The notes under the pieces were generated by a model. It did not search any database and was not told where the DNA came from. It saw only the letters and a list, made by a program, of their open reading frames with translations. This document shows, in pieces, positions 1,199-10,768 of a DNA stretch of 26,139 bases. This stretch comes from a virus. The stretch is taken from positions 1-26,139 of the IMG/VR virus record IMGVR_UViG_3300049482_000073. One strand, 5' to 3'. Every line of letters starts with the position of its first letter. Within the stretch, counting starts at the first letter, position 1. The translations under genes and the position numbers were made by a program.

Positions 1199-1430
1199 AA
1201 GATCTTTCTTAGGTAGTTTGTTTAAAGCTGCAATAGTAGCTGCTATAGCTCCCGATGTAGTAACTGCATTAAAAAACTTTACAACTAGTAAAAAGATTTT
1301 AACTTTAACTCACAACGGTAAAGAATTCTGGTATGATGTAGAAGAATATGAAGCTATGAAATCTTGGCACGATGATCTGGAAAGAAAATATTTTGATTTT
1401 AGATATAAGAATAACTTTTACATTACATGA
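1185..1430 (+). CDS. Small protein with twin-arginine (Tat) type signal sequence
   Basis: 81 aa from ATG 1185; a second ATG at 1191 gives MNRRSFLG at the very N-terminus and may be the true start. Residues 4-10 (NRRSFLG) fit the Tat consensus (S/T)-R-R-x-F-L-K. A hydrophobic h-region follows (about residues 11-29, rich in Ala, Ile and Val), with an APDVVTA region that could host cleavage. The mature part (about 30-81) is short and charged: a two-strand-like TLTHNGKEFWYDV segment, then a helix. This implies export to, or anchoring in, the inner membrane. The substrate or partner is unknown. It overlaps its upstream neighbour by 14 nt (or 8 nt) and its downstream neighbour by 4 nt (ATGA), so it is firmly inside the late operon and not a spurious frame. 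Confidence 0.72.
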   Translation: MKMNRRSFLGSLFKAAIVAAIAPDVVTALKNFTTSKKILTLTHNGKEFWYDVEEYEAMKSWHDDLERKYFDFRYKNNFYIT

Positions 1431-1981
1431 AACTGTTTCAGATAGATAACTTTGAACCTGTACCTACTGATGAATTCTTCATGATAGAAGAGTTTAAGGA
1501 ATTATACACGGTTAAGTATAACATGTCAGATGATGACAAATCAGGTAAACTGCGTAGAAGAGGTTTGTCAGAAGCCAGGTATATTTATTTTATGTATGAT
1601 CATAAGTCAGAGTTTGCCAAATACTCTGCTGAAGAAAGACATCAGGAATCTTTAAGTGCTGCGGGTTTACCTATAGATTACAAAGTATCTGTAAAGTTGC
1701 AGGCAGCTGTTGACAGGTATGAAAAATTAAACAACTCCCGTAATTTACGTTTATTAAGAGGAGCTAATGCAGCTGTTGATAAATTATCAGATTACTTTAA
1801 TGCTGTTAACTTTACACCTGTAGAAGGAGAGATGGCTTATGATCCTAAAGATTTAATATCTAACATTGGTAACCTTGGAAAAATCATTGAAGGTTTAGAT
1901 AAGTTAGAAGAAGCTGTAATGAAAGATGAAGGGTCTGAATCAGGGACAAGAGGTACTGCAGAAAAAGGTAGATTGGAATAG
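1427..1981 (+). CDS. Conserved helical phage protein upstream of terL
   Basis: 184 aa, starting in an ATGA overlap with the Tat-signal gene. It appears mainly alpha-helical. A conserved-looking core (about residues 50-75) contains ARYIYFMYDHKSEFAKYS followed by an E-R pair. A second helical region (about 88-125) carries LQAAVDRYEKLNNSRNLRLL and an Ala/Leu-rich helix. The C-terminus is acidic and probably flexible (DEGSESGTRG). I recognise the pattern as one recurring near packaging genes of Bacteroidota phages, but I know of no proven function. Its position makes a small terminase or terminase-accessory role conceivable; the length and helical content would allow it, but no helix-turn-helix is obvious. 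A 22-nt gap separates it from the next gene. Confidence 0.75.
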   Translation: MKLFQIDNFEPVPTDEFFMIEEFKELYTVKYNMSDDDKSGKLRRRGLSEARYIYFMYDHKSEFAKYSAEERHQESLSAAGLPIDYKVSVKLQAAVDRYEKLNNSRNLRLLRGANAAVDKLSDYFNAVNFTPVEGEMAYDPKDLISNIGNLGKIIEGLDKLEEAVMKDEGSESGTRGTAEKGRLE

Positions 1982-2003
1982 CAAAATACTAACTAATAGA
2001 ATT

Positions 2004-2348
2004 ATGAAAGTACTGCAGGTTAATATCTTATGTAACAAAGATGAAAGAGATGAAGAGGATTTGAAAGTAGAAGCCCAAATGAAAGATATGGGCATTAAAA
2101 TAGATGATAAAGTTGTACAGGAATGGAGATCTGGGTTTATAATTATAGATCATATTGAAGCTTTCTATCCTCATGGTAAAAAACCTGAATACACTTTAAT
2201 GCATATGACTTCTAATAATGTAATAACATTAAAAGAATCTGTAGATGATATTATAGAATTACTAAACAAACTAAACAACTCACCAAATGAGCAATACAAA
2301 CACAGTTATACAGCAATTATTGGTACGGTTCCAGAAGGAAACGACTGA
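2004..2348 (+). CDS. Small unknown phage protein, FlbD-like beta fold suspected
   Basis: 114 aa from ATG 2004. The frame could extend upstream to 1926, but that part lies inside the previous gene and adds low-quality sequence. Residues about 43-92 read as strand, strand, helix: SGFIIIDHIEAF, a loop, EYTLMHMTSNNVITL, then ESVDDIIELLNKL. The order resembles the short FlbD-type pattern of N/D-hI-E, strand, then an E-s-v-e-e-i helix, but this is a weak resemblance. The N-terminal third is acidic and helical. The last 62 nt overlap the next gene in another frame, which is long even for a phage. Function unknown. Confidence 0.68.
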   Translation: MKVLQVNILCNKDERDEEDLKVEAQMKDMGIKIDDKVVQEWRSGFIIIDHIEAFYPHGKKPEYTLMHMTSNNVITLKESVDDIIELLNKLNNSPNEQYKHSYTAIIGTVPEGND

Positions 2349-2604
2349 AGTTTATGTAGACATTACATCTTCTGAACTTGCACATCCTTTATGGGGTACA
2401 GGATGCAGATATAAAAGCTATCCTGCCACTACATCTTTAGAAAACATCTTACCTGATATAGCAGACTACTTAGATTGGAAAATAGTGTGTTCTACATGTC
2501 ATCGTGATAAAGAAGATGTAAATGGTACGTTCTGCAGTAATAGTTTTCATTTACAAGCAGGTGAAAACTTATTGAAAATGTTTGATGAACCAGAAACTAA
2601 CTAA
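2287..2604 (+). CDS. Small unknown protein, possible zinc-binding
   Basis: 105 aa from ATG 2287, inside the 3' end of the previous gene (62-nt overlap). No later in-frame ATG would retain the body of the protein. Potential metal ligands are C40, C68, C71, H72, C83 and H88; the CSTCH ... FC ... FH grouping suggests a small zinc-binding knuckle. The N-terminal 25 residues are helix-like and the middle (TSLENILPDIADYLDW) is a second helix. The family is not recognised. The TAA stop is followed by a 26-nt A/T-rich leader and the next small gene. Confidence 0.65.
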   Translation: MSNTNTVIQQLLVRFQKETTEVYVDITSSELAHPLWGTGCRYKSYPATTSLENILPDIADYLDWKIVCSTCHRDKEDVNGTFCSNSFHLQAGENLLKMFDEPETN

Positions 2605-2630
2605 CTATATAAAACTATAATAATTAAAAC

Positions 2631-2807
2631 ATGAAAACAGATAAAACACAAACTACTAAAGGTTCTTATCTTTTTGGTGAATATGTGGATATGGCAAATA
2701 CAAAACAAGTAGCTATTGTTATTAGGTTACCTTACAGACCAAGTTGGATAAAAAGATTTTGTATGAAACATTTACTGGGATTTAATTGGATAGATAACAA
2801 ACAATAA
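2631..2807 (+). CDS. 58-aa conserved-looking small protein
   Basis: ATG 2631 to TAA 2805-2807, 58 codons, in the gap between two clear genes. A 26-nt A/T-rich leader (ATAATTAAAAC) precedes it, like those of its neighbours. The C-terminal half is basic and aromatic: RLPYRPSWIKRF, then MKHLLGFNWIDNK. Arg/Lys-rich short proteins with a P-x-W-x-x-R ... LG-x-x-W-hydrophobic-D pattern recur in Bacteroidota phages in my recollection. It fills an otherwise unexplained 218-nt gap, uses typical codons and has no competing frame. Function unknown; it could be membrane-associated or bind nucleic acid. Confidence 0.6.
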   Translation: MKTDKTQTTKGSYLFGEYVDMANTKQVAIVIRLPYRPSWIKRFCMKHLLGFNWIDNKQ

Positions 2808-2822
2808 TTTAACAATAATTTT

Positions 2823-3152
2823 ATGAGACACGTAGAAAAAGCTTTATTAAAAATGTATCCTAATGGAGGAAGTGAATTTATTAAACTTCAAAATATAGCA
2901 GATGTAAAAGGAGTGGCTCCTATTGTATCTTTTATATTACAATCAGATCCTGTTAAAGAAGTAGGTGTAAATGGATGTCAAGCTTTAGATATGCTGGTAT
3001 ATACTAAATGTTTATTTGAAAGTTTAAACGAAGCCTTTCCATGTCGTGAAAATTCACTAACAATCACAAAGATTGAGGAAGCTATTCATTGGCAACATGC
3101 CAGGACTCGTGACAGAGAAAAAAGAAATGTAGAAGGAGAAAACAAAGCTTAA
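2823..3152 (+). CDS. Acb2/Tad1-domain-like protein (candidate anti-CBASS cyclic-nucleotide sponge)
   Basis: 109 aa from ATG 2823. The key segment is residues 73-91: PCRENSLTITKIEEAIHW, followed by basic ARTRDREKR (about 93-101). This matches the Acb2 signature as I remember it (P-x-x-R-E-x-S-L-A-x-T-K-L-E-E-A-x-x-W-A), including the R-E pair and the T-K-x-E-E helix. Acb2 proteins from Pseudomonas phages and T4 Vs.4 form small helical hexamers that bind cyclic di- and trinucleotides and block CBASS. The N-terminal about 45 residues here are an extension compared with short Acb2 proteins. An alternative is a helical structural or packaging accessory that merely shares the helical pair; family identity is my recollection, not a search result. 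Its stop overlaps the terL start by 1 nt (TAATG), so the two are co-translated, and it is probably made late in infection. Confidence 0.62.
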   Translation: MRHVEKALLKMYPNGGSEFIKLQNIADVKGVAPIVSFILQSDPVKEVGVNGCQALDMLVYTKCLFESLNEAFPCRENSLTITKIEEAIHWQHARTRDREKRNVEGENKA

Positions 3153-5293
3153 TGCTAATAAATACCGAATATTTTTCTGAATCTGCTAAGTATAAACTTA
3201 AAAATGGAGTTTATACTGCAGCTCCTTTTGGTTCAAAGGAGTACAGAGATTATTGGGAAGAAGAAGATAAAAGGTGTTTAGAAGGTTATAGTGTAGGAGG
3301 TACTAAAATTACAGGGCAGCACTATTTCTTTCTTAACTTCAAACAGCTGGAAACAGTTCGTGATGTTAAAGCTGTAGCTTCTACAAAAGATAAAACCTTT
3401 CCAAGATTCTGGGAAGCCCACTATAAATTCTTTCATGCTTTAGAAGAAGCTGAGTTAGCAGGTAAACACATGTGCATTCTTAAACCCCGGGGATCTGGTT
3501 TTTCAGAGATCATGTCCAGTGTTGGTGTTTATTACTATACGTTAGTAAGAGGATCTAAATGTTTTTATTTTGCTTCCAATGAAGGATATTTAAATAAAGA
3601 TGGTGTTATTACCAAGTGTTGGGACCACCTGGAATTTCTTAATGCAGAAACTCACAAAGCTTACCGGCACCTGAGACAGAAAAAGGATCAGGATCTGCAT
3701 AAAAGAGCTTCTATGGTGGACCCCAAAACTGGTAATGAATATGGATACAAATCTGAAATCATTGGAAGAGTTATTGATCACCCTAGAAAAGTTAGAGGAG
3801 CTAGAACTGGGTCCAGAGGAAAAGTATTCTTTGAAGAAGGAGGTTCTTTCCCAAATCTCAAAGATGCGGTTATCACTACCAGACCACTTGTTGAACAGGG
3901 GGGAATAACTACAGGCCAGATAATTTTATGGGGTACCGGAGGTGAAAAAGGTCCAGGCATAGAAGGATTGGAACATATATTTTATCATCCTGATGCTTAT
4001 AACATGATGAGCTGGGAAAATATATGGGACGAAGACAGGAATGATACAAAGTGCTGCTACTTTATTCCTGTTTACGATACTATGGATAAGTACATGGATG
4101 AAAATGGTAATGCTTTAAAAGATGCTGCCAGATCTTCCCATGAAAAGGAAAGAGCTAAAATTCATGTACAGGACCCTACAGCTGAAGATAAGTACATAGC
4201 TGAATTTCCATTTACTCCTAGTGAAGCTTTAATCAGATTATCAGATAATATTTTTCCTGTTGTAGAATTACAGAAGCAATTATTAAAAGTATCTACAGAC
4301 AGAAACATCCAGGGATTTCTGAAAAATGGTTGGATGTATACAGATGTTACAGGTAAACCTAAATTTAGAATAGATAGAAATGCCAGACCTATTGTAGAAT
4401 TTCCACACGGTGCCGGAGATAATTTAAATGGATGTGTTACCATAGTAGAATCTCCATATAAAGATCAGCTTGGCAGAGTACCTGATGGAATGTATTTAAT
4501 AGTAGTAGATCCTTATTATAAAGATAATTCCGAATCTAAAATTTCACTAGCATCTGCTTATATCTACAAGCATTATAATAATTCTTCACCTACAGAAGAT
4601 GATATTATTGTAGGATGGTATACATCAAGACCAGAGAAGTTAGATGACTTTTACAGGCAGCTGTTTATGCTGGCTGAATATTACAATGCTACTATTCAAG
4701 CAGAGATTGCAGGTGGAGGTAAAGGTATTTTAGATTATGCTACTTTTCATAAACTAAAACAATACTGTGAAAAAGAACCTGATATTGTTTACAACAAAGA
4801 AAATGCTGTTAAAGCTTTTAACAAACCTTACTTTATGAATATGGCTGGTGACAGACCTCAACTGGCATTAGCATATTTATCAGACTGGTTACGTCAGGAA
4901 AGATCTGCTATTGATGATAATGGAGAAGTTAAAAGTATCATGAACTTACATAAAATTTATGATGAAGGTTTACTAAAAGAACTTATCAAATTTAATGCCA
5001 GTGAAGGTAACTTTGATAGAGTATCTGCAATGAGGTTACTTCCTTTTATGATTAAGGAAAGATCTAACCAGGAATATAAAATCAGACAAGAAACTTCTCA
5101 GAAATCTTATTGGGACAGAGAATTTCACAGTGATGGTGTAGCCGAAGATCCTAGTTACCAACTTACCCAGTGGGAGTTAATGGCAGCCATGAATAAAGAA
5201 TCTGAAGAGAAATACGAGGTTTTTACAGAAAACACTAAAGGAGTAAAAACATCTTATAGTAATAACGCAGTGTATCCTGAAGATTTAGAATAG
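3152..5293 (+). CDS. terL: Terminase large subunit (packaging ATPase and nuclease)
   Basis: 713 aa; start ATG 3152 overlaps the previous stop. TerL drives DNA into the prohead by ATP hydrolysis and cuts the concatemer. The N-terminal segment (about 41-62) carries CLEGYSVGGTKITGQHYFF, typical of large Bacteroidota-phage terminases. The ATPase has a Walker A-like KPRGSGFS at 111-118, a Walker B-like KVFFEEGG at 224-231 and a coupling motif ILWGTGG at 258-264. The Walker A is the variant R-G-x-G form rather than GKS/T. The C-terminal RNase H-like nuclease shows acidic residues D453 (VVDPYY), E518 (AEIAGGGKG) and D622 (NFDRVSA), the usual triad pattern. The protein is longer than the common 450-600 aa, as in crAss-like phages. 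It is followed by a hairpin and then the portal gene. Confidence 0.95.
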   Translation: MLINTEYFSESAKYKLKNGVYTAAPFGSKEYRDYWEEEDKRCLEGYSVGGTKITGQHYFFLNFKQLETVRDVKAVASTKDKTFPRFWEAHYKFFHALEEAELAGKHMCILKPRGSGFSEIMSSVGVYYYTLVRGSKCFYFASNEGYLNKDGVITKCWDHLEFLNAETHKAYRHLRQKKDQDLHKRASMVDPKTGNEYGYKSEIIGRVIDHPRKVRGARTGSRGKVFFEEGGSFPNLKDAVITTRPLVEQGGITTGQIILWGTGGEKGPGIEGLEHIFYHPDAYNMMSWENIWDEDRNDTKCCYFIPVYDTMDKYMDENGNALKDAARSSHEKERAKIHVQDPTAEDKYIAEFPFTPSEALIRLSDNIFPVVELQKQLLKVSTDRNIQGFLKNGWMYTDVTGKPKFRIDRNARPIVEFPHGAGDNLNGCVTIVESPYKDQLGRVPDGMYLIVVDPYYKDNSESKISLASAYIYKHYNNSSPTEDDIIVGWYTSRPEKLDDFYRQLFMLAEYYNATIQAEIAGGGKGILDYATFHKLKQYCEKEPDIVYNKENAVKAFNKPYFMNMAGDRPQLALAYLSDWLRQERSAIDDNGEVKSIMNLHKIYDEGLLKELIKFNASEGNFDRVSAMRLLPFMIKERSNQEYKIRQETSQKSYWDREFHSDGVAEDPSYQLTQWELMAAMNKESEEKYEVFTENTKGVKTSYSNNAVYPEDLE

Positions 5294-5337: not shown

Positions 5338-7842
5338 ATGATAAAAGCTCCTATCCAAAGAGATGTCCATAAAAGAGATCCTTATAAAGGAATAAAGCCA
5401 CTTCTCAGAGTTTCAGAAGCTGAAAAAACAGCTAATGATTTTTCACATTGTAAAGATGTTGTAGATTATTTAATAGGTTCTACCTATTTTCAGGATGTTA
5501 CCGGACAACGTAATTCTAACTACAGAGATTTGTATGTGCTTTACAATGTTTATAACAATGTAATACCGGAAGAGTATTTTTCATATGTTACAAATCCTTT
5601 AAACTCTGTTAAAAAACAACACACTTCTTTTCCCGCTAAAATAAGACCTTATAACATTATAAGGCCAAATTGCGACCTGCTATTTGGAGAATTTGATAAA
5701 CGTCCTAAAAATTATACAGTTTGGGTAAGTGATGGAGAAGCTATGAATAATGCTGAAGAGCAGTTGTATTCAGCTTTACTTTCTAATTTACAGCAACGGT
5801 TTATCAATAAAGTTAACGAGTTATCAGGTGGTAATGAAGAAGCTACCGGAGTAGAGTCACAACCTGTTGAACTTCCTTTAAAACTTAAAGCTAAATTTCT
5901 TTCTAATTATAAAGATGAACGTGCTCAGTGGGGACAAGTTAACTTAGAAGAAATTGATCATGATGTGCAAACTACAGAACAGTTTGCCAGAATGTTTAAA
6001 GATTTTGTGATTGCAGGAGAGTGTTATAGTTTGAAAAGAGTACATAAAGGAAGAATTTCTTATGAAAGAGTTTCTCCTATGGATGTTGATTATGATAAGG
6101 CACCTGATAATAAATATGTAGAAGATGCTTCCTGGGTAGTAAGACGTAAGTATGTATTACCTTCTGATGTAGTTTCTCAATTTTACGAAGAGTTAAGACC
6201 TACGCAAATTGATAAAATGGAATCTCAGGATGCGGGATTGCCTTTTACTACTCCTTATTTTAATACGTTGTTTGGTAATACTTATAGACGTGAAGAAGAT
6301 TTAAAGAGAACCAAACTTACCCAGTATCACATAACCTGGAAGTTTTATAAAAAAATAGGAGTATTAGCATATGCTGATGAGATGGGAATGCCACAGCAAA
6401 TGGAAGTAGATGAAAATTACAAAGCAGATAAAAATGTTGGAGAATCTGTAGAATGGATATGGGTACCGGATTGGTGGGAAACTTACCGGGTAGATACTCC
6501 TAATATAAATGCAGATCCTAAAAGTTCTAATAGCGAGATTGATACTTTGTACCTAGGTACCCGCAGAATTGAAGAACAACGTACAGAGGAGTTTGATTTT
6601 GGATATTGCAAAGGTCCTTTCAATGGTATACGGTTTTCAGATGTGCACTCCAGAAACACTTCAATTGTAGAACTAGGTCTTCCTTACCAGATCATGTACA
6701 TCATTTTACATTACAGACTTGAGCTGGCACTGGCAAAATCTAAAGGTAAAATAGCGTTATTGGATATCAATACAATTCCTAACACTAAAGGTTGGGATGA
6801 GGAAAAGTTCTTTTATCATTCAGAAGCTAACGGCTATGCTTTATTAAACAGAAACCAGTTGGGTGTAGATAAAGGCTGGAATCAATATCAGGTTTTAGAT
6901 CTGTCTCTTTTTGAGCACATAGCTAATCTTATAAAGATTATGGATTATGTCAGGACTGAGTGGGATCAATTAGTAGGTTTTACACCGCAACGCAAGGGAC
7001 AAGTTGCAGCTTCAGAAACAGCTTCTGGAGTAGATGCCGCCAGGTACCAGTCTTCAGTAATATCAGAAAGACTTTTTCAGGGTTTTGATGAATTCATTAG
7101 AACTGAAAGACAAGGTTTGCTGGATCTTTCCAAGTTTACAAATCTAACTGGACGTAGAGCTATTCATTATGGAGATGATATGCAAAGTCAGATGTTAGAG
7201 ATAGATCCTGCAAGATATACTGAAACAACTTTTAATATACATGTTAGTAATTCCTCTTCTGATTTGGAGGATGTACAAACTATGAAGGGACAGGCTGCAA
7301 ACTTTGCGGCTCAAGGTTCAAGACCTTCTGTTATTGCTGAAATTCTACAAGCTAAAAATATTAGTAAGCTTAAAGGTATTTTAAAAGCTATGGAAGCTGA
7401 GGAAATGGAAAAAGCTGATAAGCAGTCTCAAGCTGAAAATCAGATTGCTACTCAGAAAATGGAAATTGAAAAACAATACAGGGAAATTGAATTCACATTT
7501 GATAGTCTTCTGCAAAAAGAGAAGCTGGAAGGTGATAAAGAACTGGCTCATATTAAAGGGCAATATGCATTGGCAGATACCAATACTCCAGGGGATGAAT
7601 TAGATCCTTTAGCAGTAGAAGATCAGCTTATGAAACGTGAAGAGATGCTTGGTAAATCTGCAGAAGCTCGGGAAAAGATATTATTAGAACATAAAAAACT
7701 TCAGGATCAGAAAATTATGCACGATGATAAAATGAAGACTGAAAAATATAAAGCAGATACCTCTCTTAAGATTGCAAAAGAAAACCAAACTGTTTCTGAA
7801 CTCAAACAAAAACAAAGTAAAAGAGCAGCTACAAAAAAGTAA
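5338..7842 (+). CDS. Portal protein
   Basis: 834 aa from ATG 5338, the first gene after terL, where a portal is expected. Portals form the dodecameric ring through which DNA enters and leaves the head. Residues about 20-110 contain the wing-type start region, with a segment (about 100-120) around RPYNIIRPNCDLLFGEF. A long mixed alpha/beta body follows. A conserved-looking helix near residues 555-600 contains AASETASGVDAARYQSS and then SERLFQGFDEFI, like the crown/stem helices of large portals. From about residue 665 to the end the protein is a long, charged, Lys/Glu/Gln-rich helical tail, an extension beyond most portals. The length fits crAss-like portals. Identity rests mainly on size, position and overall pattern. 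The 44-nt upstream gap holds a hairpin; the 92-nt downstream gap is an A/T-rich leader to the scaffold gene. Confidence 0.87.
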   Translation: MIKAPIQRDVHKRDPYKGIKPLLRVSEAEKTANDFSHCKDVVDYLIGSTYFQDVTGQRNSNYRDLYVLYNVYNNVIPEEYFSYVTNPLNSVKKQHTSFPAKIRPYNIIRPNCDLLFGEFDKRPKNYTVWVSDGEAMNNAEEQLYSALLSNLQQRFINKVNELSGGNEEATGVESQPVELPLKLKAKFLSNYKDERAQWGQVNLEEIDHDVQTTEQFARMFKDFVIAGECYSLKRVHKGRISYERVSPMDVDYDKAPDNKYVEDASWVVRRKYVLPSDVVSQFYEELRPTQIDKMESQDAGLPFTTPYFNTLFGNTYRREEDLKRTKLTQYHITWKFYKKIGVLAYADEMGMPQQMEVDENYKADKNVGESVEWIWVPDWWETYRVDTPNINADPKSSNSEIDTLYLGTRRIEEQRTEEFDFGYCKGPFNGIRFSDVHSRNTSIVELGLPYQIMYIILHYRLELALAKSKGKIALLDINTIPNTKGWDEEKFFYHSEANGYALLNRNQLGVDKGWNQYQVLDLSLFEHIANLIKIMDYVRTEWDQLVGFTPQRKGQVAASETASGVDAARYQSSVISERLFQGFDEFIRTERQGLLDLSKFTNLTGRRAIHYGDDMQSQMLEIDPARYTETTFNIHVSNSSSDLEDVQTMKGQAANFAAQGSRPSVIAEILQAKNISKLKGILKAMEAEEMEKADKQSQAENQIATQKMEIEKQYREIEFTFDSLLQKEKLEGDKELAHIKGQYALADTNTPGDELDPLAVEDQLMKREEMLGKSAEAREKILLEHKKLQDQKIMHDDKMKTEKYKADTSLKIAKENQTVSELKQKQSKRAATKK

Positions 7843-9217: not shown

Positions 9218-10768
9218 ATGGCATTAAGTAACAGAACCAACAAGTTCCAGTTCCAGGTGCAAGCTGACATCTTTGATGGCAAAGACCTCCTTGACGAACA
9301 GAACTTTTATCATCAGCGTTATGGAAAACCTGATGAGTTGTCTCAGAAACTTACCTGGTTGTTAGGTGATAGCACACGCTCCTTCCCTCTGGCAATGTCC
9401 ACGATGGGGGACGTTGTATCACCAAATGGTTTCAAAGCCAATAACACCAAGGTGAGAGAGATGAACGACATCCAGTACACGTACCCTGTCATGTCCAGAC
9501 TTAATAAAGCTATCACAGTAGCTGAATCAAGTACTGTAACTGATGCGGGTTATGGCAATTCGCCATTTACTATCACATTCACTGACAACTGGGCAAAGCA
9601 GAATTACATGATTGAATCTCCACTTGGAGTTCAGGCATATATTCTACAACCTCCGGTTAAAGTTCAACAAGGCTGGCAGTACACAGTGCAGCTCAATGCT
9701 GTATCTGATAAAACCATCTGTCCTATTGGGGAACTTACTGCTGGTGTGAAATGGGTAGAACTTAACACTTTTAACCCTGAATCTGAATCTCGTGGTACAG
9801 CTTTCAAAAGAGTTGCTCCAGGTAAATTCAAGAATCAAATGTCCATTATCCGTTTGTCACATGCCTGGGCAGGTAATTCTGCTAACAAGGTAATGCCAAT
9901 TAAGATTTCTCATGAAGGTAAAGCTGATATGAGTCTTTGGATGGATTTTGAACATTATCAGTTTGAAAGGGCTTGGCTTGAAGAAGTAGAACACATGTTC
10001 TGGTATTCCAGATACAATCGTAGAGCTAACTCTACTATTGATTTGAAAGATCTTCTTTCAGGTAAAGTAATCCCAACAGGATCTGGTATCCTTGAGCAGG
10101 TAAATAACTATTCTACCTACAGTTCTTTGACTTATAACTATCTTCAAAATACAGTTGCTAATGCATTGTTTGGACAGTCAGATACTGACGGTATGAGCAT
10201 TACATTGTACACTGGTCGTGGAGGTATGAGAGAATTTGATGCAGCTATGAAATCTGCAGGTGTAACTCAGCTGGCAATTGCTGGTGGTGGTGACATTGCA
10301 CATAAGTTTGTAGGTGGAAACAACTACAACCTTACTGCGATGGGTTTCTTTGATAGTTTTTACCACATTGATGGTTACTATATCAAAGTAAAGCACAACC
10401 CTGTATTTGATTATGGCCGTAGAGCTTTAAAGTCACCTCTGCACCCTGATACTGGCTATCCTTTGGAAAGCTACAGAATGGTGTTTGTAGATGATGGTAC
10501 TTATGATGGAGAACCAAACTTGCAGTGTGTGACTGAAAAAGGACGTAGATTCCTTCATGGAGTTGTTCCTGGTATGTCTCCACTTCCACGTCAGTATCAG
10601 ATTCTTCAAGGAGCTGGTAACCTGAATTCAGGTAATCTTGCTCTGGTGACTACAGATGTTGATAAGAGTTCTTACCATAGACTTATGGTAGGAGGTTGCC
10701 AATTGCGTAGAGGTAATACCTCATTGCATCTTGAATGCATAAGTGGTATTGGTAACATCGTTGTTTAA
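9218..10768 (+). CDS. Major capsid protein
   Basis: 516 aa from ATG 9218, directly after the scaffold candidate. The length fits crAss-like HK97-fold capsid proteins. Features consistent with a shell protein are a long N-terminal arm (1-50), a beta/alpha body with an EHYQFERAWLEEVEH helix (about 245-260), a loop-rich Gly-containing middle (GRGGMREFDAAMKSAG, about 333-348) and a hydrophobic strand-rich C-terminus. Codon choice differs from the neighbours: the first half uses many C-ending codons (TTC, AAC, ATC, GAC, CTC), a common sign of very high expression. The stop is followed within 60 nt by the strongest terminator in the first half of the window, which would set off an abundant transcript. 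HK97 fold is inferred from position and size; no motif proves it. Confidence 0.88.
   Translation: MALSNRTNKFQFQVQADIFDGKDLLDEQNFYHQRYGKPDELSQKLTWLLGDSTRSFPLAMSTMGDVVSPNGFKANNTKVREMNDIQYTYPVMSRLNKAITVAESSTVTDAGYGNSPFTITFTDNWAKQNYMIESPLGVQAYILQPPVKVQQGWQYTVQLNAVSDKTICPIGELTAGVKWVELNTFNPESESRGTAFKRVAPGKFKNQMSIIRLSHAWAGNSANKVMPIKISHEGKADMSLWMDFEHYQFERAWLEEVEHMFWYSRYNRRANSTIDLKDLLSGKVIPTGSGILEQVNNYSTYSSLTYNYLQNTVANALFGQSDTDGMSITLYTGRGGMREFDAAMKSAGVTQLAIAGGGDIAHKFVGGNNYNLTAMGFFDSFYHIDGYYIKVKHNPVFDYGRRALKSPLHPDTGYPLESYRMVFVDDGTYDGEPNLQCVTEKGRRFLHGVVPGMSPLPRQYQILQGAGNLNSGNLALVTTDVDKSSYHRLMVGGCQLRRGNTSLHLECISGIGNIVV

Follow-up and report, generated by a model that had tools for sequence, protein, structure and literature searches.

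A predicted Tad1-family immune-signal sponge gene in a variable slot before terL of a crAss-like phage

The locus described here lies in a viral sequence of 26,139 nucleotides (IMG/VR virus record IMGVR_UViG_3300049482_000073), the whole of which is called the window below. A short ORF encoding 109 amino acids is placed directly before the gene for the terminase large subunit, in the company of other small genes and of genes for packaging and head formation. The genes, and the parts of the ORF that are referred to later, are as follows.

1427..1981, + strand: conserved gene at the upstream edge of a variable slot
2004..2348, + strand: slot gene, 114 aa, shared by two close kin (37-41%)
2287..2604, + strand: slot gene, 105 aa; no relative found
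2631..2807, + strand: slot gene, 58 aa; no relative found
2823..3152, + strand: tad1-like gene, predicted Tad1-family immune-signal sponge, 109 aa, ATG to TAA
2823..2939, + strand: N-terminal region (residues 1-39), the Tad1 N-terminal beta region, with helix 3-11 and strands 20-23 and 34-37
2940..2975, + strand: loop Q40-S-D-P-V-K-E-V-G-V-N-G51, conserved in the family, N50 and G51 invariant
2982..3122, + strand: C-terminal helical hairpin, the Acb2/Tad1 hairpin domain (PF24729, AlphaFold2), helices 54-71 and 75-100
3111..3143, + strand: C-terminal tail DREKRNVEGEN (97-107), Tad1-typical by residue comparison and conserved in the family
3152..5293, + strand: terL, crAss-like terminase large subunit, 713 aa (phrog_6681, E 3e-107; ~35% to crAss-like terminases)
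5338..7842, + strand: gene called portal-like from its position and size; syntenic in crAss-like kin
9218..10768, + strand: crAss-like major capsid protein (MCP), by tblastn to annotated crAss-like MCPs (E ~1e-51)

The terL and MCP sequences identify the phage as crAss-like, and gene order is kept in its kin, running from gene 845 through gene 1427, the slot, terL, the portal-like gene and a scaffold-like gene to the MCP gene. The gene at 1427..1981 is possibly terS, to judge from its position; it is syntenic in L074, L075, L076 and L094 and in most of the records L103-L132 where the region is present. A first-pass annotation of the sequence had put the tad1-like gene in a late packaging operon and had it overlap terL by one base, and both observations hold: base 3152 is at once the last of the tad1 TAA and the A of the terL ATG. 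The join is not the special feature that it was then taken for, as the terL genes of L075, L076 and L103 overlap other upstream genes by one base too, and translational coupling with terL specific to tad1 was rejected because this one-base join recurs in kin with different genes upstream. A promoter of its own was also rejected for tad1: the Bacteroidota-type pattern TTTG-N-TANNTTTG is absent nearby, and its frequency in the window is no higher than chance.

The ORF at 2823..3152 is a real protein gene under purifying selection. The frame is recovered, the start and the residues MRHV are common to most close relatives, the alignment spans the whole length, and dN/dS lies at 0.09-0.24 against relatives with computable dS, dS itself being near saturation. 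The initial assignment to the Acb2/Tad1 superfamily had been made from a single motif, PCRENSLTITKIEEAIHW, which is present as described except for its span: its 18 residues occupy positions 73-90 of the product, not 73-91. The motif is not a chance resemblance, because Pfam PF24729, PHROG 2428, the structure 8kbb and the Tad1 of phage SBSphiJ7 all match the protein, and the superfamily call is supported by these family matches. For PF24729 (Acb2_Tad1_hairpin) the match has E 9e-4 and 19.8 bits against a curated cut-off of 27, and the model hits 35 of the 41 family members at E <= 0.01; PHROG 2428, a family of unknown function, gives E 6.5e-17. A phmmer search of the PDB with the protein returned CmTad1 (8kbb, 5e-12), CbTad1 (1.5e-5) and phiKZ gp184 (1.9e-5), and a profile built from the 41 members returned the same three at 6e-29, 5e-20 and 8e-17. 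Acb2 chains are absent from both searches, the profile search having been followed up to E 10. SBSphiJ7 Tad1 was matched among GenBank phages with 39% identity over 86% of the query (E 1e-10).

The 109-aa protein belongs to the Tad1 branch of the Acb2/Tad1 hairpin superfamily and not to Acb2; membership of Acb2 was rejected since the profile search (to E 10) and the 50 best Foldseek matches contain Tad1 structures but no Acb2, and the Acb2-type label of the first-pass annotation has to be given up. The "45-aa N-terminal extension" that had been attributed to the protein is the ordinary Tad1 N-terminal region, as the profile match to CbTad1 covers chain residues 14-125 of 125. Taken by itself, the protein is an unremarkable member of a family already known.

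An AlphaFold2 monomer modelled with the family alignment (pLDDT 92.1, pTM 0.82) has a helix at residues 3-11, strands at 20-23 and 34-37, and helices at 54-71 and 75-100. The Tad1 architecture, in which two long C-terminal helices come after an N-terminal beta region, is present in the model, with fewer strands than the four given for Tad1 (PMC12043709); that of Acb2, a short N-terminal helix and two helices with no N-terminal beta region (PMC12043709), is not matched. The Foldseek comparison proposed at first pass as a check on an Acb2 fold came out for Tad1: ranks 1-18 in the PDB are all Tad1 structures (prob 0.98-1.00, TMq 0.48-0.65), some of them in complex with gcADPR, cAAA and cAAG, the E value at rank 19 is 1.6, and Acb2 is absent among the 50 best matches. 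Superposition on the PDB structures gives a high rmsd, 5-10 Å, at TM-scores of about 0.48-0.65, and parts of the monomer model are therefore oriented differently from the Tad1 crystal structures. In the viral library Foldseek gives five matches with E better than 0.001, two of which are named Acb2/Tad1 hairpin domain proteins.

Invariant or nearly invariant in the family are Q40, P43, E46, G48, N50, G51, F72, C74, R75, E76 and N77 and, in the C-terminal half, T82, K83, E86, W90, R94, R98, R101, V103, E104 and G105. The hairpin carries CREN (74-77) and TKIEEAIHW (82-90), and the Q40-G51 loop, whose residues are mostly identical in CmTad1 and SBSphiJ7 Tad1, is presumed to contribute to the predicted ligand pocket. 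Nineteen of 23 conserved or pocket-candidate positions are identical to CmTad1, and the four that differ are conservative or hydrophobic (L68/F, F72/Y, R101/K, V103/I). The predicted pocket residues Q40, P43, E46, G48, N50-G51, C74-N77, R94, R98 and E104-G105 are kept, as judged by sequence. The ligand contacts F82, N92, R109 and R113 of CbTad1 correspond to L68, N77, R94 and R98 here. The Tad1 signature residues are kept except for one Phe to Leu change at position 68, which is common to the close clade and a Brochothrix phage protein and accompanies a loop one residue shorter; with both changes, the choice of ligand may differ from that of CbTad1. The Tad1 pocket has been described as made up of four conserved loops and the C-terminal tail of one protomer together with the two helices of the other (PMC12043709), a layout that the conserved blocks of the 109-aa protein fit.

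Comparison with kin showed that, in this crAss-like group, the region before terL is a cargo slot of variable content. Between gene 1427..1981 and terL (window 1982-3151) the distance ranges in kin from -53 to 1547 bp and the gene content varies. Tad1 was found in no kin slot between the homologue of gene 1427 and terL, and is absent from L074 and L075, with terL 76-78% identical, and from L076, with terL 66% identical. In kin the slot is empty or holds other genes; from a reading of the sequences we take one of these to encode a GroES-like protein (L122 2239-2610), and others a HAD-like phosphatase and a nuclease-like protein (L125 2676-4212). Beside tad1, genes 2287-2604 and 2631-2807 are candidate accessory or counter-defence genes; assignment of either to a known counter-defence gene was rejected on finding no relatives.

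Relatives of the protein at 66-78% identity sit in phages with different terminases. In L002 the Tad1 is 78% identical and terL only 24%, and L031 has a Tad1 relative together with a phrog_2 terminase. Since close relatives occur in unrelated phages, the gene is taken to be mobile and, on these sequence comparisons, to have been gained horizontally by the crAss-like phage. Among 29 crAss-like records searched in full, many of which are fragments, a single one has a divergent Tad1 (L131/G073, 39%), 4.3 kb upstream of terL and on the same strand as it, and none of the 85 matching GenBank phage records (E 0.01) bears crAss, Bacteroides or Flavobacterium in its name. The divergent Tad1 4.3 kb upstream of terL in a crAss-like phage other than that of the window (L133 6729-7079, - strand) belongs to a different Tad1 lineage and is apparently an independent gain. 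Plasmid copies were looked for, and none was found. The genome of Sporomusa ovata DSM 2662 (L084) contains a Tad1 relative that equals that of phage contig L055 in identity and coverage, and the two are probably the same prophage.

The position beside terL had been regarded at first pass as unusual, but it is not unique: terminase-adjacent tad1 recurs in several unrelated phages, without being the rule. The gene lies between terS and terL in L014 (466-807) and L015, with L031 and L061 of the same type, 18 bp after terL in L033 (2907-3230), immediately before terL, which it overlaps by 4 bp, in L046 (4905-5270), before terS in L052 (3792-4196), and between a head-tail connector gene and the MCP gene in L055 (5809-6225). 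In L012, L020, L041, L069 and L072 it is found amid primase, helicase or polymerase genes. Within 200 bp of terL it occurs in 3 of the 20 records with an identified terL, where random placement would give 0.42 (p ~0.007), but p is 0.05 at 500 bp and 0.2 at 1500 bp, and the 200-bp threshold was picked after inspection of the data. Strong enrichment next to terL was rejected on these grounds, and the statistic is suggestive only, a lead and not a result.

Tad1 proteins sequester gcADPR and the di- and trinucleotides of CBASS (PMC12043709; PMC12657218), and the 109-aa protein is probably a counter-defence sponge of this kind. The best explanation of the locus, in which we have considerable confidence, is a horizontally acquired, late-expressed Tad1-family sponge for Thoeris and/or CBASS signals. 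The gene would have entered the cargo slot between gene 1427-1981 and terL, and would be transcribed along with the packaging and head genes, so that its expression, as gene order suggests, would be late. The protein, with its N-terminal beta region, helical hairpin and VEGxN tail, would assemble as dimers and then as a hexamer, and would bind gcADPR (Thoeris) and/or cyclic di- and trinucleotides (CBASS) tightly and without degrading them, so that the effectors of the host stay off. In staphylococcal and streptococcal Thoeris, major capsid proteins can act as the trigger (PMC12578639), and a sponge encoded in the packaging and head operon would then be produced along with that trigger. It is plausible by analogy that late timing pays for this reason, the MCP coming from the same module. 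The more specific proposal, that some phages put tad1 in the packaging and head operon so that the sponge coincides with capsid-triggered Thoeris or else is loaded into virions for the next infection, is a doubtful one, though with some chance of being right. A sponge timed to the moment when the capsid, a known Thoeris trigger, is made is offered as an idea; if it were true, late timing would have left its trace in Tad1 genes inserted repeatedly and independently next to terminase genes.

Virion delivery as an explanation of the locus in its own right is improbable. Carried in or on the head and injected, the sponge could be active right from the opening minutes of the next infection, and the place of its gene in the packaging operon would be accounted for. 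There is a precedent in phiKZ gp184, whose C-terminal Tad1-like domain is matched by the family profile as given above, which is part of a solved structure (8y6v) and annotated as a structural protein, and which has been validated as an injected protein (PMC10449902); relatives in P59 and CM1 are also annotated "putative structural protein". However, some 120 residues that could serve as an anchor precede the Tad1-like domain of gp184, whereas the 109-aa protein has no such extra part, and gp184 is changed at conserved sites (R75 to E, T82 to N, E86 to R, W90 to A). Relatives also lie among replication genes, and tad1 is not conserved with the head and packaging module, being absent from kin that have it.

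That the fold serves as a structural or packaging part, an accessory of the terminase or head and not a sponge, is very improbable. The late-operon place, the overlap with terL and the recurrence of terminase adjacency in the unrelated phages listed above (L014/L015/L031/L061, L033, L046, L052) would be in its favor, but phages with terL 66-78% identical do without tad1, its relatives accompany unrelated terminases or lie far from terL, and the Tad1 signature residues are kept rather than lost. A role as a structural core gene was rejected, tad1 not being conserved in close kin. The original reading, of an Acb2-type protein that has gained an N-terminal extension and acts solely against CBASS, can point to the common hairpin motif, to PF24729 taking in both families and to the ability of Tad1 proteins themselves to bind CBASS nucleotides (PMC12043709), but the profile search (to E 10) and the 50 best fold matches are free of Acb2 structures and the N-terminal region and VEGxN tail are those of Tad1, so that as a classification it is largely refuted and retains hardly any likelihood.

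The preferred reading is that a crAss-like phage carries a Tad1-family sponge gene in its late operon; the type of protein is known and the place is less usual. Among known systems, Acb2 has the helical-hairpin superfamily (PF24729) in common with the protein, a direct match being below detection. In phiKZ gp184 (8y6v chain I), a virion protein of 230 aa, the C-terminal Tad1-like domain is shared, and the differences are a long N-terminal part, partly changed conserved residues and injection into the host; it is encoded at L080 2536-3228, and its Tad1-like domain is diverged. The founding anti-Thoeris sponge, Tad1 of the Bacillus phage SBSphiJ7, is the gene from which anti-Thoeris Tad1 was selected (PMC12043709), and in the stretch read its flanking genes are annotated only as hypothetical. 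CbTad1 (7uav, 7uaw, 8smd, 8kbe) is matched by the profile over nearly its whole length at ~29% identity, with REN, T, EEA, W, R, DR, R, V and G conserved, but its NG loop and the cysteine of CREN are changed. The best match in both sequence and fold is CmTad1 (8kbb, 8kbc, 8kbd), which has the Q-x-x-P-x-K-E-x-G-x-N-G loop, CREN-xx-ITK, RTxDRE and the EG tail in common with the 109-aa protein; relative to CmTad1 the loop before CREN is shorter here by one residue, Phe is replaced by Leu at 68, and the N-terminal part is shorter and diverged.
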